The notes beneath the pieces were generated by a model, which did not search any database, was not told where the DNA came from, and worked only from the letters and a program-made list of their open reading frames with translations. A stretch of DNA of 64,000 nt from an uncultured Isosphaeraceae bacterium (GTDB taxonomy: Bacteria > Planctomycetota > Planctomycetia > Isosphaerales > Isosphaeraceae): NCBI GenBank assembly GCA_945957605.1, contig CAMFLR010000018.1:1-64000 (forward strand), in the 5' to 3' direction. Made by a program: the position numbers and the translations under genes. This document shows, one piece after another, positions 33,516-40,294 of this stretch (position 1 is its first letter; every line of letters begins with the position of its first letter).

Positions 33516-34814
33516 ATGGATGACATCCCTGTTCAGGCGGCCGTTACGGTTCGCAAACGCGCATGGCGGCGCGGGCTCGACTGGGTCCTCCGCATCAGCG
33601 GCGCCGCAGTCATCGTATTGTTGCTGACTGTTATCTCGATTCGTACGTACAACCTCTGGGGTCTGTCGCGCGTCCCCGAACCGTTTGATGTCGTTGCGTT
33701 TGAAAATCGCCGCGTGCCCGACGCGGAAAACGCCTACCCGTTCTATGCCAAGGCCGGCCTGATGCTCGACGGCAACTTGCCATCGAACGGCCCAGCCAAG
33801 CCCAGACAGCTCGGCAAGGACTGGAGCAATCTTGGCTCAGACGCCCAGCGCTGGGTTGAGCGCAACCTCCCCGCGCTGGAGATCTGGCGACAGGGAACCG
33901 ACCGGCCGCTCTTGCGATTTCCTCGAGGCGCGATTCTTTCCGCCGAGGACTTCAACATCGCCAACCAGCTCGAGCTCTGGCAGTTGCTCTCGCTTCTACA
34001 AGCTAGCCGCCTCGAGGAAACGGGCGACCTTTCCGGCGCCTGGAACTGGCACAAGGCGCGGCTGCGCATGCGGGTTCATTATATCCGCCTACAAACCGTG
34101 ATCCCGATCCACAACCTTACCGTGCTGCTCGATCGCCTGATCGGGCGTGCTGAATTGTGGGGGAAACTCCCGGGAATTACCGTCGCACAGCTTCGCCAGG
34201 CAATTGCCGATGTTCAAGCGATGGAGCTGCTCTACGGCAATCGTTCCGACATGCTCAAGCTTCAATATCTTTACTATCGGGATCAGATTGAAGATCTCGC
34301 TTCTCCAGCCGATCCCGACGCCAAGCACGCGAACGAATCGTACGACTTCTGGCACGATACTGCACTGCCGCTCATTCACCAGGGCGACCTCGTGCTGACC
34401 GCCGAGCCCGAACGCTCGCGCCGGACGTTGCGACACCTGTTCGCAAACTGGCTCGCCGAGGCTGACAAGCCGCCCGATGAACGCGCGCCGGTTCATTCGG
34501 CCAAGCCGCTTGTTTTCCGCTCGAGCGAAGAGTCTGACGCGGCAATCTCCGCCGATACCCTTGCCTGGCAAGCCGCTCATGCCCCCTTGATCGCCCAGGC
34601 TCACGCGGCAAATATCGGCATAGATGACTGGCCGCAGGTGCTCGACTCCGAGCGCCGCGCCTGTGCGAATTTCATCGTGCAGCTTGCCAGTCGAATTTAC
34701 GAGATCGAACAGGGAAAGCTCCCCAATTCGCCCGAACATCTCGTCGGCACCGTGCTCGATAAACTCCCCGACTTTTTCACGCCGATCGCTTCGCCGCCGT
34801 CGAGCGAAATGTGA
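33516..34814 (+). CDS. Membrane-anchored unknown protein, tandem paralog 1 of 3
   Basis: 432 residues. One N-terminal membrane helix (about 23-43, ISGAAVIVLLLTVISI) is followed by RTYNLWGLSRVPEPFDVVAF, which opens a family shared by this gene and the next two. Other shared blocks are VPDAENAYPFYAKA, NLPALEIWRQGTDRPLL, the LLQASRLEETGD...WNWHKARLR segment, HLFANWLAEADKPPDERAP and RIYEIEQGKLPNSPEHLVGT. The last resembles the GKxPxSxxxL pattern of planctomycete DUF1559/TPR neighbours. No known domain or catalytic motif was seen. The bulk is outside the membrane. Confidence 0.7.
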   Translation: MDDIPVQAAVTVRKRAWRRGLDWVLRISGAAVIVLLLTVISIRTYNLWGLSRVPEPFDVVAFENRRVPDAENAYPFYAKAGLMLDGNLPSNGPAKPRQLGKDWSNLGSDAQRWVERNLPALEIWRQGTDRPLLRFPRGAILSAEDFNIANQLELWQLLSLLQASRLEETGDLSGAWNWHKARLRMRVHYIRLQTVIPIHNLTVLLDRLIGRAELWGKLPGITVAQLRQAIADVQAMELLYGNRSDMLKLQYLYYRDQIEDLASPADPDAKHANESYDFWHDTALPLIHQGDLVLTAEPERSRRTLRHLFANWLAEADKPPDERAPVHSAKPLVFRSSEESDAAISADTLAWQAAHAPLIAQAHAANIGIDDWPQVLDSERRACANFIVQLASRIYEIEQGKLPNSPEHLVGTVLDKLPDFFTPIASPPSSEM

Positions 34815-34853
34815 CGTGGACCCCGCCGATTCTCTGGCGAAAAGAGAGCGACC

Positions 34854-36224
34854 ATGACTCCCAGCGAAGCACCGACAGCGATTCCTCGGCTCGAACCGAG
34901 GCGAGGGCGATTCAAGCGCGGCGCGAAGTGGCTGGGCCGGGCCATGGTCGTTCTCATCATCCTGCTTGTGCTGGGAGTCGCGGCGCTCCGGTCTTACAAC
35001 ATGTGGGGGCTCGACGATGCTCCCGAACCGTTCGACATCGCCGCGTTTCAGGCCGAACGTATTCCCGACGATCAGAATGCCTACGCGATTTTCAAGCGCG
35101 CCTACGAGATGCTCGACAAGAAACCGCCGAGCTTCACAAATCTGCAAATGAAGATGAGAGAGGCTGAGTGGGTCGATATCAACGCTGAAGCGCGCGACTG
35201 GATCGACCGAAACCTGCCTGCGCTCGAAGTCTGGCGAACAGGAACCGATCTCCCCTTCTTGCAGAGCCCGAAGGGGCTGCTCGATTTCAGCGAAGATCCA
35301 GCGGTTTCGTGGAATTCCCGAACGCTCTGGTCCCAGATGGCCCTCTTGCAAGCCAGCCGTCTCGAAGACGCTGGCGATTTCAGCGGCGCATGGAAATGGC
35401 ACAAGGCACGGTTGCGCGGCTGGCTGCAAACCGGCTACCGGCAACCGCTGATCAACCTGTTTTCGACGTCATTTCGATTCAGCCAGCTCAGCACCCGATC
35501 ACAAAGCTGGGCCGACCACAAAGGTGTAACCGTCGCACAAATTCGCACCGCCATGGCCGACCTCGAAGCGATGGACGGGCTGACCGGAAAGCCTTCGGAC
35601 ACGCTCAAAGCTCAATACCTTTTCATGGAGCAATCGTTTCAAAACTACTGGCAATACATTCCGCCCAGTGACCCGAATTCTGTGAAAGTCGTTCTCGACC
35701 CGGTTCGACCTGCGATTCAGTGGGTGAAGTATCTGGTCACCAACGAGCCCGAGCGTTCGAAACGCACGCTTCGCCTCATGTTCGCGAACTGGCTTGCCGA
35801 AGCCGATAAGCCGATGGCCGAACGATCGAAGGAGTTCTCGAAAGTCCCGCTCATTTTCCTGCCCGAACCCGGAAAAACGCCACCGATTTCACCGCAAACG
35901 CTCGCCTGGCACGCCGAAAACGGGCCGCTGATCTTCGCAATGCGCGACGGATATCTTCCTATGCGTGCGAACGTTTGGGGTGTCGAGAACTGGCCCCGGC
36001 AAGTTGAAGCCTCGCGGCGCTCCCTCGCTGGCATGAGGGTCGGCATGGCGAGCCGGATCTACGAGATCGAAACTGGAAAGTGGCCGAGTTCTCCCGACGA
36101 GTTGATTGGCAAGGTCATCCCCAAACTGCCGGAAAACTATGTCGAAGCCGGCTCCGATCAGGCTGGGAACCAAGCGGGCGCACCGGCCGGCAAGGCGAAC
36201 GCCAAGACTCCACGAGCGAAATGA
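34854..36224 (+). CDS. Membrane-anchored unknown protein, tandem paralog 2 of 3
   Basis: 456 residues, same architecture as the preceding gene: helix (AMVVLIILLVLGVAA), then RSYNMWGLDDAPEPFDIAAF, IPDDQNAYAIFKRA, NLPALEVWRTGTDLPFL, LMFANWLAEADKPMAERSKE and RIYEIETGKWPSSPDELIGK. The C-terminus has a short Lys/Ala/Gln-rich extension. It starts 40 bases after paralog 1 and its stop overlaps the start of paralog 3 (ATGA at 36221), so all three are almost certainly one transcript. Confidence 0.7.
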   Translation: MTPSEAPTAIPRLEPRRGRFKRGAKWLGRAMVVLIILLVLGVAALRSYNMWGLDDAPEPFDIAAFQAERIPDDQNAYAIFKRAYEMLDKKPPSFTNLQMKMREAEWVDINAEARDWIDRNLPALEVWRTGTDLPFLQSPKGLLDFSEDPAVSWNSRTLWSQMALLQASRLEDAGDFSGAWKWHKARLRGWLQTGYRQPLINLFSTSFRFSQLSTRSQSWADHKGVTVAQIRTAMADLEAMDGLTGKPSDTLKAQYLFMEQSFQNYWQYIPPSDPNSVKVVLDPVRPAIQWVKYLVTNEPERSKRTLRLMFANWLAEADKPMAERSKEFSKVPLIFLPEPGKTPPISPQTLAWHAENGPLIFAMRDGYLPMRANVWGVENWPRQVEASRRSLAGMRVGMASRIYEIETGKWPSSPDELIGKVIPKLPENYVEAGSDQAGNQAGAPAGKANAKTPRAK

Positions 36225-37516
36225 TGAGCGATCAAGCAACACCTGCGGCTGCGGTTTCCAATCGCTCGTTGCGTCGGCGCAGGACCTTTAGCTGGGCCGT
36301 GCGCATGGGGACGGCGCTGTTCATCATGATCACGTTCGTCGTCACCGCGCACCGGTCGTACGTGATGTGGGGACTGCCCGATGCCCCCGATCCATTCGAC
36401 GTCAAAGCGTTCCAAGTCGAGCAGATTCCCGACGCCGAAAATGCCTATCCGGCATACGTCGATGCACAGCGGCGTCTCCTTGTGCGGTTTCCCGCATTCA
36501 CATCGTCCAAAGGGGCGCGTCACTCGCCGGAATGGGCCGATCTCAATGAGGCCGATCGCGCCTGGATCGAGCAAAACATGCCGGCGCTTTTAGTCTGGCA
36601 GCAAGGCACCGAACGCCCTCGCCTGCGCATTCCGGCCGATCGCGATCAGTTCAAGATCGACATGCCGATGGGCCTGCAAGTCGAGGGATGGGAACGTGCT
36701 GCGCTCATTCTGGCGAGCCGCGCCGAAGACTCAGGCGACGTCAAAACCGCGTGGGCCTGGCACAAAGCGCGGTTGCGAATGAAGCTGCAAACACTCGACC
36801 GTGCGACGCCGTTGATCCTCTGGAATCAGTCGTTTCTCTTCCATCAATACATCGCGCGGACGCAGGCTTTAGCCGATCATCCCAAGATGACGGTTGCCCA
36901 ACTCCGAGAGGCGATCGCCGATCTCGAAGCGATGCAATCGCTGCACGTCCGCCCTGCGGATTCACTCAAGGCGCAGTACATCGAGCTCAATCAACAGCTC
37001 GAAAACTATGTGTTGAAGCATCATTCCGACGATCTCTCGATTGGCAACGTGCTGCGCCGCGTCGTTGAGCCGGTCCGCGAATTCTACGAAGCCGAGCCCG
37101 ATCGCACGAGGCGCAGCTTGCGTTTGCTATACGCCAACTGGCTCGCGCAGGCAGAACGCCCGCGGGATCAAAAACATTCCGAGTACTCGAAAACACCGCT
37201 CGTCTTCACGACGCTTCCCGAAGACAACGCGCCGATCTCCGACCGCGCTCTGACATGGCACACCACCAACGCGCCGATCATGAAGCTGTATCGTTCACTG
37301 GAGCGAGGCCCGAGCTCGCTGATCCCGCTCATCGACGACTGGCCCAGGCTCGTCGAAACGAATCGGCGCGCGATTGCGCAATTGATCGTCACCTTCGCCA
37401 GCCGCATTTACGAGCTGGAAAAAGGCAAATGGCCGGATGATCCCGCACAGCTCGTCGGCACTGTTATACAGGAGTTACCGGCGGGCTTCGATCCGAACCC
37501 AACTTCATCGCAGTGA
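36221..37516 (+). CDS. Membrane-anchored unknown protein, tandem paralog 3 of 3
   Basis: 431 residues. ATG at 36221 overlaps the previous stop by four bases; a second ATG at 36224 is possible. Helix (MGTALFIMITFVVTA), RSYVMWGLPDAPDPFDVKAF, IPDAENAYPAYVDA, NMPALLVWQQGTERPRL, HKARLRMKLQ, RLLYANWLAQAERPRDQKHS and RIYELEKGKWPDDPAQLVGT match its neighbours. Identity looks moderate outside these blocks, so the copies have diverged and may form a hetero-oligomer. A thioredoxin-fold protein follows 47 bases later. Confidence 0.7.
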   Translation: MMSDQATPAAAVSNRSLRRRRTFSWAVRMGTALFIMITFVVTAHRSYVMWGLPDAPDPFDVKAFQVEQIPDAENAYPAYVDAQRRLLVRFPAFTSSKGARHSPEWADLNEADRAWIEQNMPALLVWQQGTERPRLRIPADRDQFKIDMPMGLQVEGWERAALILASRAEDSGDVKTAWAWHKARLRMKLQTLDRATPLILWNQSFLFHQYIARTQALADHPKMTVAQLREAIADLEAMQSLHVRPADSLKAQYIELNQQLENYVLKHHSDDLSIGNVLRRVVEPVREFYEAEPDRTRRSLRLLYANWLAQAERPRDQKHSEYSKTPLVFTTLPEDNAPISDRALTWHTTNAPIMKLYRSLERGPSSLIPLIDDWPRLVETNRRAIAQLIVTFASRIYELEKGKWPDDPAQLVGTVIQELPAGFDPNPTSSQ

Positions 37517-37563: not shown

Positions 37564-38805
37564 ATGAGAAGCATCCAGACGAAGCTGGCGATCTGCCTTC
37601 CAGCGCTGCTTCTACTCACCACACTTCGTGGCACCCGAGCCGACGAGCCAAAGGAAATTCGCGGACGAGTCGTCGACGAAGCGGGGAAGCCGGTTGCCGA
37701 CGCAGCCGTCGACTGCTTCTGGCGTGCAAACGGCTCGGCCCGAGATCGAGACGGCAAGCCGTACGACCTCTCCAAACCTGAGAATATCAAGCTCTTCTGG
37801 GGTCATCTTGGCGAGATGGAACCCATTGGCCAACGTCAGCCCATTCACACAGAATCAGACGGCCGATTCTCGATTGGGGATACATCGCCGAATTTCGCTG
37901 TGATGGCCATGGATCGATCGCGGCAGCATGGCGGAATTAGCCTGCTGCCAAGAACTGAGCGAGCCGAACCAGTCGAAATCCGGCTGGCCCCGCTGATCAC
38001 GGTGCGCGGGTCGCTCGAAGGGCCGAATCCCGGCCAGAAGCCGCACTGGACCCACGTCTACGTCCACTTGCCCGAGGACCCCACTCGACCGCTCCACAGC
38101 ACCAGGCTGGTAAGCTGCGGATCGTTCGAGGCCAAGTTTGAATTTCACCTGCCTCCAGGAAAATACACCCTGCAAGCCTACAGCCAGTTTGCCGAGAACG
38201 AGCAGTTCGAAGGTGAACTCATCCCCAATAAACCGTTCGTGCTGGAATCTGGAAGGACCGACGTCGATCTCGGCCGGCTTCGACTGGCGCCTCACCGTCG
38301 CTATCGCCAATCGCTGGAAGCAAAATCCAAAGCCGAGGGTTCCTGGAACGACTACACAAAGCACTACGGCGAGCCATCGCCCCAGTGGCATGCCACCGAT
38401 GCCCGAGGTGTGAGCAAGGACGCCCAGGTCGCCGACTATCGAGGAAAGTGGCTACTCATCGACTTCTGGGGCCTGAGCTGCCGCCCCTGCCTTACGACCG
38501 GCATGCCCAGGCTCATGAAGTTCTATGACGATCACAAGTCTCAGCGTGACAAGTTCGAAATCGTGTCGATTTGCATCGACTGCGACGGCGACCTGAAGTC
38601 GATGGCCGACCTCGATCGGGCGCTGGAGCCGATCGTCAAGTATGTCTGGGACGGCAAGTCCTTGCCGTTCCCCGTCCTGCTCGATCCCACGTTCAGGACC
38701 TGGGAACGATTCGGATTGTCCGGCTTGGGGACCGTCATCCTGGTCGATCCCGAAGGGAAGCTCGTCAAGGGTGACGAACAAACGCTCGCCGAAAAACTCA
38801 AGTGA
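37564..38805 (+). CDS. Secreted thioredoxin-like (TlpA/redoxin) protein with carboxypeptidase-regulatory-like domain
   Basis: 413 residues. A signal peptide (to about RGTRADE) leads a beta-sandwich domain (EIRGRVVDEAGKPVADAAV, near 31-50) and a second one to about 245. The C-terminal thioredoxin fold (about 285-410) has the motif WGLSCRPCL with C306 and C309, then a TlpA-like tail with DPTFRTWERFGLSGLG. It probably reduces disulfides or delivers electrons in the periplasm. Because it follows the three paralogs closely, they may be its substrates, but this is inference. Confidence 0.8.
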   Translation: MRSIQTKLAICLPALLLLTTLRGTRADEPKEIRGRVVDEAGKPVADAAVDCFWRANGSARDRDGKPYDLSKPENIKLFWGHLGEMEPIGQRQPIHTESDGRFSIGDTSPNFAVMAMDRSRQHGGISLLPRTERAEPVEIRLAPLITVRGSLEGPNPGQKPHWTHVYVHLPEDPTRPLHSTRLVSCGSFEAKFEFHLPPGKYTLQAYSQFAENEQFEGELIPNKPFVLESGRTDVDLGRLRLAPHRRYRQSLEAKSKAEGSWNDYTKHYGEPSPQWHATDARGVSKDAQVADYRGKWLLIDFWGLSCRPCLTTGMPRLMKFYDDHKSQRDKFEIVSICIDCDGDLKSMADLDRALEPIVKYVWDGKSLPFPVLLDPTFRTWERFGLSGLGTVILVDPEGKLVKGDEQTLAEKLK

Positions 38806-38824: not shown

Positions 38825-39319
38825 TCACGAGTCGCGTTCCATCCATTTTTTTACCTCTGCCGACTTCGCCCAATCGCCCGCCACTCCCCTGGTGGCGACG
38901 TTGAGTCGGTTCCAAACATTGATCGTCGCAATGGCAATCAGCAAGGCCGCGAGCGCCCGCTCATCGTAGTGTCGGGTGGCCTCGGCCCAGATATCGTCGG
39001 GAACTGGATCCGGACGATCGCTCAGTCGCGTGACGGCTTCCGTGAGTGCCAGCGCGGCGCGCTCAGCGTCGCTGAAATAGGGCGCATCGCGCCAGCCCGC
39101 CACCGTGAAAAGGCGTTCCTCTGTCTCCCCCGCCTTTTTTGCGAGCATGGGGTGCATCGAAAGACATGCACTACAACCATTGATCTGGCTGGCACGCAGG
39201 TGAACCAGGCCGACCGTCGCCGCCGGCAAGCCAGCCTTCTCCGCGCAGGTTCCCAGAGTGAGCAGGGCTTGCATCGCGTCGGGAATGATCATTGCTGGAT
39301 TGGTCATTCGTGCTTTCAT
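38825..39319 (-). CDS. AhpD-like carboxymuconolactone decarboxylase family protein
   Basis: 164 residues. The AhpD signature INGCSACLSMHP has C49, C52 and H56, the redox-active pair and proton relay of alkylhydroperoxidase-type proteins, so it is more likely a peroxidase or disulfide reductase than a decarboxylase. The ATG at 39319 has GGAGGAGAG upstream and avoids an unlikely extended N-terminus. It is divergent from an ECF41-type sigma factor, the known neighbour of this family, and has a matching promoter at 39394-39420. Confidence 0.88.
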   Translation of the reverse strand: MKARMTNPAMIIPDAMQALLTLGTCAEKAGLPAATVGLVHLRASQINGCSACLSMHPMLAKKAGETEERLFTVAGWRDAPYFSDAERAALALTEAVTRLSDRPDPVPDDIWAEATRHYDERALAALLIAIATINVWNRLNVATRGVAGDWAKSAEVKKWMERDS

Positions 39320-39358
39320 GAATTCTCTCCTCCCAAGGTTTTGAAGATAATCGCTTCT

Positions 39359-39385
39359 TGTCACGTTGCCCGAGGTTCGTTCGTC
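39359..39385 (+). promoter_or_regulatory. ECF41-type promoter for the sigma factor gene
   Basis: TGTCACG at 39359-39365 and CGTC at 39382-39385 are 16 bases apart. This matches, with one change in the last base of the -35 box, the pattern TGTCACA-N16-CGTC known for ECF41 sigma factors. It lies 36 bases before the ATG at 39422, so the sigma factor may activate itself. Confidence 0.7.
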
Positions 39386-39393
39386 ATCAGGTT

Positions 39394-39420
39394 GACGAAA
39401 CGTGTTCAAGGAATGTGACC
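39394..39420 (-). promoter_or_regulatory. ECF41-type promoter for the AhpD-like gene
   Basis: On the minus strand GGTCACA (39420-39414) and CGTC (39397-39394) are also exactly 16 bases apart, differing from the pattern only in the first base. It points at the AhpD-like gene, whose ATG is 75 bases further. The -35 box ends one base before the sigma gene's ATG. Confidence 0.7.
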
Positions 39421-39421
39421 G

Positions 39422-40294
39422 ATGACCGAAACAGAATGGCTGGCAGAGCGATTCGAGGCCGACCGCACTCACCTGCAGGCGGTAGCCTTCCAGATGCTCG
39501 GCTCGCTCAGTGAAGCAGACGACGCTGTGCAAGAAGCCTGGCTTAGACTCAACCGAGCCGACACAAGCGGCGTTGAAAACCTGGGCGGATGGCTGACGAC
39601 CGTCGTCGCGCGGGTGTGTTTCGACATGCTCCGCTCACGCAGGGCCCGACGTGAAGAATCGCTGGGCGCGCACGTCCCCGAGCCAATCGCGAACCGCAAA
39701 GGCGAAACTGACCCCGAGCGCGAGGCGATCCTGGCCGACTCGGTCGGTCTCGCGCTACTGGTTGTGCTCGAAAGGCTGGCTCCCGCCGAGCGACTGGCGT
39801 TCGTGCTGCACGACATCTTCGCCGTTTCGTTCGACGAGATCGCCCAAGTCGTGGGGCGCACTCCAACCGCGGCAAGGCAACTCGCAAGTCGCGCGCGTCG
39901 CCGGGTCCGTGGAGCGCCGAAGGCCAATCTTGCCTCTCAGCGAGCCGTGGTCGACACCTTTCTCACCGCCTGGCGCAATGGTGATTTCGGCGCACTCGTG
40001 GCAGTGCTCGACCCCGAAGTCGTGGTCCGCGCGGACGTCGGGGCCGGGGGCGTAAAGACGCCGAGTGAGATTCGTGGTGCACAGACCTGGGCGAAGCAGG
40101 CGATGGTCTTCTCGCGGGGTGCCCTGGCCGCTCGCCCGGCACTCGTGAATGGCGAGTTGGGCGTTGTTGTGGCTCCGCGGGGACGACTTGTCCGCGTGCT
40201 CAGCTTCTCGATTGCGGGCGGGAAGATCGTCGCGATCGAAGTGATCGGCGACCCCTTGCGCTTCGGCGGGCTCGACCTGTCACTGCTCGATTGA
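39422..40294 (+). CDS. ECF41-type RNA polymerase sigma factor with SnoaL-like tail
   Basis: 290 residues, longer than ordinary ECF sigmas. Region 2 (about 8-75: FQMLGSLSEADDAVQEAWLR) and region 4 (about 110-163: PAERLAFVLHDIFAVSFDEI) are followed by a SnoaL-like domain (172-290). The linker has HVPEP where ECF41 proteins have WLPEP. The tail has ADVGAGG for the DGGG motif and ends GDPLRFGGLDLS for NPDKL, so both regulatory motifs are present but altered. In this family the tail, not an anti-sigma factor, controls activity; none is encoded nearby. The AAGGA at 39408 supports the start. Confidence 0.9.
   Translation: MTETEWLAERFEADRTHLQAVAFQMLGSLSEADDAVQEAWLRLNRADTSGVENLGGWLTTVVARVCFDMLRSRRARREESLGAHVPEPIANRKGETDPEREAILADSVGLALLVVLERLAPAERLAFVLHDIFAVSFDEIAQVVGRTPTAARQLASRARRRVRGAPKANLASQRAVVDTFLTAWRNGDFGALVAVLDPEVVVRADVGAGGVKTPSEIRGAQTWAKQAMVFSRGALAARPALVNGELGVVVAPRGRLVRVLSFSIAGGKIVAIEVIGDPLRFGGLDLSLLD

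Follow-up and report, generated by a model that had tools for sequence, protein, structure and literature searches.

A 62-bp element between the divergent genes of an ECF41-type sigma factor and an AhpD-like protein (positions 39359-39420 of the window, that is, of the whole 64,000-nucleotide stretch of DNA analysed here) is probably a reciprocal bidirectional promoter, which the adjacent sigma factor would read on both strands and for which polymerases would compete. This is the best explanation of the promoter sequences, the gene families on either side, the conservation and geometry of the element in relatives and the variability of the partner gene; dependence on ECF41, the positions of the starts, exclusion between polymerases and a physiological effect are what it predicts.

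Promoter P has its -35 box TGTCACG at 39359-39365 and, exactly 16 nt further on, its -10 box CGTC at 39382-39385 (both plus strand), and faces the sigma gene (ATG at 39422, plus strand). Promoter M, on the minus strand, has its -35 box GGTCACA at 39414-39420 (read 39420-39414) and, again exactly 16 nt past it, its -10 box CGTC at 39394-39397 (read 39397-39394), and faces the carboxymuconolactone decarboxylase (CMD)-family gene (ATG at 39319, minus strand). The preliminary description had reported TGTCACG-N16-CGTC (plus strand, 39359-39385) and GGTCACA-N16-CGTC (minus strand, 39420-39394) within 62 bases, and this was confirmed base for base. Its assignment of both promoters to the ECF41 type also stands: they match the consensus derived from reporter assays and 5' RACE (PMC3426412), and each deviates once, in the -35 heptamer, from the published TGTCACA-n16-CGTC. 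The M -35 box sits between the Shine-Dalgarno sequence of the sigma gene (AAGGAA, 39408-39413, plus strand) and its ATG; the Shine-Dalgarno sequence of the CMD/AhpD-like gene (GGGAGGAGAG) is at 39325-39334 on the minus strand. The central gap between the two -10 boxes is 8 bp, and the boxes lie in a symmetric core (39381-39398; consensus CGTCA-N6-TGACG in a sequence logo of 23 paired loci), the predicted shared bubble of P and M. The element thus consists of pseudo-symmetric core-promoter DNA facing both ways, as in bidirectional promoters. A search of the region for a housekeeping-type promoter or a terminator found none.

The sigma gene (39422-40294, plus strand) encodes a 290-aa ECF41/SigJ-type protein with sigma2, sigma4 and a SnoaL-like C-terminal part, as judged by domain searches, alignment and fold comparison. 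PF04542 was found at residues 14-75 and PF08281 at 111-161, with no sigma3 region, as in ECF41 factors; the alignment with Mycobacterium tuberculosis SigJ (5xe7) is full-length and covers residues 9-286 (E 1e-46). We call the protein SigJ-like rather than SigJ because its score against the NCBIfam SigJ subfamily NF007214 (264 bits) falls just under the curated cut-off of 271. The C-terminal SnoaL-like extension typical of ECF41 is present: SnoaL_2 is weak in this protein alone (E 0.005), was detected at E ≤ 0.001 in 8 of 12 aligned members, and a fold search with the predicted model (pTM 0.44, so that the domain arrangement is uncertain) returned SigJ first and then the SnoaL-bearing SigG1. 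ECF41 proteins carry WLPEP-, DGGGK- and NPDKL-type motifs in the linker and C-terminal part. The window protein has VPEPI in the linker, and VGAGGVK and GDPLRF replace the DGGGK- and NPDKL-type motifs, with SigJ aligned at the same places. The gene adjoins a CMD-family gene and has no adjacent anti-sigma gene, again as in ECF41 loci, whose neighbor is a CMD, oxidoreductase or epimerase gene. The sigma2/sigma4 architecture, the SigJ alignment, the SnoaL-like end and the ECF41-type promoters together bear out the ECF41 identity first proposed for this gene.

At 57-66% identity, the sequences closest to the sigma factor belong to Actinomycetota, Acidobacteriota, Chloroflexota and other groups, and the genome's own order offers relatives at only about 33-42% identity. 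In a quick tree, in which many branches are weak, the protein groups with acidobacterial sequences and a single sequence from Cohnella (support 84). From these sequence relationships, the locus was likely acquired horizontally. The same genome encodes a second ECF41-like sigma factor (L002, contig C7:352749-353573) that is about 34% identical; it has no TGTCAC/CGTC motif upstream and no CMD gene nearby, and such relatives are common in the window's order.

The partner gene (38825-39319, minus strand) encodes a 164-aa carboxymuconolactone decarboxylase/AhpD-like protein. PF02627 (63 bits, cut-off 23), TIGR00778 and the CxxC...H motif of the CMD/AhpD family (GCSACLSMH in the translation) agree with the partner identity given in the preliminary description. 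The remaining neighbors of the sigma locus encode AhpC/TSA-type and TPR proteins. Adjoining and facing the AhpD-like gene is a gene (37564-38805, plus strand) for an AhpC/TSA-thioredoxin-like protein with a carboxypeptidase-regulatory-like N-terminal part, and the two products may have a redox link. Further away (33516-37516, plus strand), three successive genes encode similar proteins of 432-478 aa that share stretches including 'RSYNMWGL..PEPFD' and 'SRIYEIE.GK.P', and are apparently tandem paralogues.

A single ECF41-type motif is not significant alone. Allowing one mismatch, 8 matches were found in the window against 5.4 expected, and the 8.8-Mb genome contains 21 perfect matches against about 21 expected from base composition by our own arithmetic; a genome-wide single-motif search for further targets was abandoned as uninformative for this reason. 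The pair, unlike the single motif, is highly significant: in 294 genomes from the window's own phylum, by gene content probably Planctomycetota, a 60-bp composite of both promoters had a single match, at the present locus, and its reversed control had none.

To examine conservation, 80 loci were fetched by sigma-protein similarity, of which 78 (57-66% identical) were usable under a strict motif. Across the 80 loci, both promoters are seen again with their 16-nt spacers, P at about -63 and M at -1 or -2 relative to the sigma ATG. Among the 78, strict pairs span 62 bp in 22 loci, 63 bp in 4, 65 bp in 1 and 98 bp in 1. The preliminary description had made its reading depend on the layout being kept in relatives, and kept it was: a strict pair of 62-63 bp is present in 26 of 78 relatives and in 0 of 1,560 shuffled loci, counts that are inflated by kinship. 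The 1,560 dinucleotide shuffles yielded one pair at any span and none at 62-63 bp. Paired loci outside the window come from Actinomycetota, Acidobacteriota, Chloroflexota, Thermomicrobiota and Pseudomonadota, and the deepest branch of the sigma clade in the quick tree (L091) is itself a paired locus. The description of the layout as unusual is therefore not supported: many ECF41 loci, from at least five phyla, share it, which makes it a conserved design and no peculiarity of one genome. Between one paired locus and another, only about 47-49% of spacer positions are identical, so selection, and not recent shared descent alone, keeps the boxes in place.

Several relatives depart from the standard arrangement. 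In L038 the pair still spans 62 bp despite a sigma ATG placed 84 nt further downstream (one locus); the ATG beside the intact pair (about 2321-2471 of that locus) opens a frame of only 16 codons, and the pair is uncoupled from the sigma start. L043 (3887-4000), a divergent CMD locus, breaks the 62-bp rule with promoters 98 bp apart and a duplicated TGTCACATCG-N5 -35 region. L048, L050, L053, L054, L069, L070, L076, L080, L086, L088 and L106 have mostly NmrA- or SDR-type partners, and many of them carry a TGTC or GGTC -10 box in place of CGTC on one or both strands; they perhaps represent a sigma subgroup with a different -10 preference. L052 and L094 keep TGTGACCG-ATG (the M -35 box) at the sigma start but lack both a recognised divergent partner and the M -10 box, and may have lost a partner of which the -35 box is a relic.

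So that the choice of loci did not depend on the sigma gene, we also searched 447 actinobacterial genomes (246 from the phylum of an Actinoallomurus genome and 201 from its order) with the pattern GTCAC-N17-CGTC-N{0,20}-GACG-N17-GTGAC. This free-gap pattern (0-20 bp) gave 34 matches, with gap 8 in 20 of 34 and gap 9 in 4 of 34, and its reversed control gave none in the same 447 genomes. The excess at gap 8 corresponds to a binomial p of about 3e-18 if all 21 gaps are alike, with counts inflated by kinship. All 18 gap-8 loci that were fetched (two of the 20 were not) lie at an ECF41 start, as do 3 of the 4 gap-9 matches, the other being at a contig end. An ECF41 gene is also present at the gap 4, 11 and 20 matches and at one of the two gap-14 matches; the other gap-14 match and those with gaps 0 (two), 15, 18 and 19 have none. 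The preference for gap 8 is sharp, not absolute, and exact reciprocity is not essential, since some paired loci have gaps of 4, 9, 11 or 14 and L043 spans 98 bp. At two gap-8 loci the sigma factors are only 42-43% identical to that of the window, so the layout is either old or rebuilt.

Why the gap should be 8 bp is suggested by the predicted transcription starts. The printed promoter sequence of the Sinorhizobium meliloti ECF41 target SMb20029 ends at a G 9 nt after CGTC (PMC6180224); a neighboring entry in that source prints its start as the last, lower-case letter, and the SMb20029 start was read likewise from the end of the sequence. For the promoters mapped by Wecke et al., leaders of 22/23 nt from the mapped G are given in the text and of 31/32 nt in the table (PMC3426412), and the difference of 9 nt in both organisms would be accounted for if the table counted from the -10 box. 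Of 28 relatives with P only, 25 carry G as the ninth base after CGTC and 19 carry A directly behind it; in distant relatives a G stands at 9 or 10. These data suggest that ECF41 transcription starts 9 bases after CGTC. The preliminary description had expected starts near 39390 and 39388; on the 9-nt rule they are better placed at about G39394 for P (plus strand, 28-nt leader) and at a G at 39385 for M (minus strand, 66-nt leader). If these starts are right, each predicted +1 G at gap 8 pairs with the C that ends the -10 box of the other strand. Both predicted RNAs begin with GACG and do not overlap, and the predicted starts are separated by 9 bp, a distance that falls in the 7-25 bp counted for known bidirectional promoters.

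We propose the following mechanism. Once the SnoaL-like domain permits activity of the sigma factor, holoenzyme would transcribe the sigma gene from G39394 when bound in one orientation, and the AhpD-like partner from 39385 when bound in the other. Because each predicted +1 G faces the last C of the other strand's -10 box, both open complexes would need the same melted stretch (about 39383-39396), so that only one polymerase at a time could use the 62 bp, and the predicted polymerase footprints overlap as well; it is plausible, with precedents elsewhere (PMC12825309, PMC5263251), that polymerases at P and M hinder one another in this way. Active sigma factor would raise its own gene and the target together, and competition would limit the positive feedback at high activity.

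The gene opposite the sigma factor varies among relatives. Partner genes were called by tblastn with reference partners and by Pfam, which replaced ORF-length calling, a noisy procedure in GC-rich loci. A recognised divergent partner is CMD/AhpD-like in 15 loci, counting the window, and NmrA-type in 12, with DoxX-like, epimerase-type and MFS genes as further types; paired loci outside these types have glyoxalase, flavodoxin-type reductase, polyketide-cyclase-type, NUDIX or NAD(P)-binding genes. Of 32 loci whose divergent partner was recognised, 29 have M at -2 to +1, against 9 of the 46 others (Fisher p 3e-10 for divergent partner versus M/pair, with kinship left in); a phylogeny-controlled test of divergent partner versus pair, with too few independent pairs, gave a median p of 0.25. 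The promoter appears to behave like a cassette with an exchangeable target slot.

An alternative, which we consider unlikely though it has some support, is that two ordinary ECF41 promoters are merely packed into a short intergenic region and have no regulatory interaction, the fixed span being set by the length of the sigma leader and by the place of M between the Shine-Dalgarno sequence and the ATG. Loci that lack M still have P at -58 to -77, so a constraint acts on the leader length by itself, and at Escherichia coli bidirectional promoters there is no competition at basal activity, competition being possible when one side is strongly activated (PMC12825309). Packing would not lead one to expect, however, that the placement of P at -63 tightens from a standard deviation of 5.3 nt without M to 0.9 nt once M is present, that gap 8 prevails in the search unconditioned on the sigma gene, or that the span in L038 (a single locus) survives displacement of the sigma ATG.

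The preliminary description had instead suggested that the paired promoter gives a switch-like response through mutual hindrance. Positive autoregulation alone does give a steep threshold in a minimal model, but that model, with the sigma factor acting as a monomer, has a single steady state throughout; when P and M exclude each other, each output reaches only half its maximum and the peak log gain drops by roughly 30%. Interference at bidirectional promoters of E. coli also cut cell-to-cell variation (PMC12825309). Bistability is thus very improbable here, and on the strength of the model, the E. coli promoters and the precedent of HrpL, a self-limiting loop is to be expected, not a switch. 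We reject as hardly credible the reading of the 62-bp inverted repeat as the operator of a dimeric regulator or an RNA hairpin with only secondary resemblance to promoters: the 62 nt folded as RNA are indeed more stable than shuffles (z -3.1), as follows from the boxes being inverted repeats, but complementarity in relatives is confined to the boxes (97%), the spacers pairing at 33% against 29% after halves were swapped between loci, P alone in the correct orientation precedes sigma genes that have no divergent partner, and the whole repeat is in neither transcript if the predicted starts are right. RNA structures in the leaders were less stable than shuffles.

Returning to the competing two-way promoter, we advance a broader proposal more tentatively, giving it not quite an even chance. 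ECF41 promoters would be near-symmetric by nature, because the preferred start (T at -1, G at +1, A at +2) complements the end of their own -10 box (TCA), and evolution may therefore have repeatedly built or kept a single-bubble two-way promoter, a portable, self-limiting cassette present in many phyla with an exchangeable enzyme or transporter gene opposite the sigma factor. If the two-way promoter is real, it would extend bidirectional promoters based on sequence symmetry from the housekeeping sigma factor to ECF sigma factors, and account for the presence of two promoters at many divergent ECF41 loci, as remarked in the literature. It would also offer a natural system in which regulator and target compete for one bubble, where the effect of polymerase competition on positive feedback and noise could be tested with single-base mutants, and a DNA signature for finding ECF41 start sites where a genome lacks annotation.

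Two ECF41 promoters between divergent genes are in themselves not new, as they have already been tabulated. Wecke et al. (2012) established TGTCACA-n16-CGTC as the ECF41 motif, demonstrated its use by the CMD genes of Bacillus licheniformis and Rhodobacter sphaeroides with reporter assays and 5' RACE, and listed 55 divergent <ECF< >COE> loci with the motif before ECF in 36, before COE in 41 and 'often both' (PMC3426412). Those loci share with the present one an ECF41 gene divergent from a CMD-type gene and the motif before both; the main text of that paper does not discuss the promoter geometry, namely the 8-bp gap, the 62-bp span and the reciprocal starts. Within the incomplete literature covered, the interlocked, conserved geometry appears not to have been described before.

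The nearest mechanistic parallels lie outside ECF41. Warman, Grainger and co-workers described bidirectional promoters that arise from DNA-sequence symmetry, with divergent starts a few to 25 bp apart (7-25 bp counted; 18, 10 and 23 common; PMC12825309, PMC10268837). Common to these and the 62-bp element are pseudo-symmetric DNA, close divergent starts (here predicted) and, as we infer for the present case, polymerase exclusion. They differ in that the former are sigma-70-type promoters with near-palindromic -10 elements, whereas in the 62-bp element an ECF -10 box is joined to the opposite predicted start, and in that one product of the latter would be the very sigma factor that reads the promoter. 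In the negative autogenous control of HrpL, the ECF holoenzyme, bound at the promoter of a divergent target, impedes transcription of its own sigma gene (PMC5263251). The HrpL gene has a sigma-54 promoter, so that the effect is pure negative feedback, whereas at the present locus both promoters appear to use the same sigma factor.
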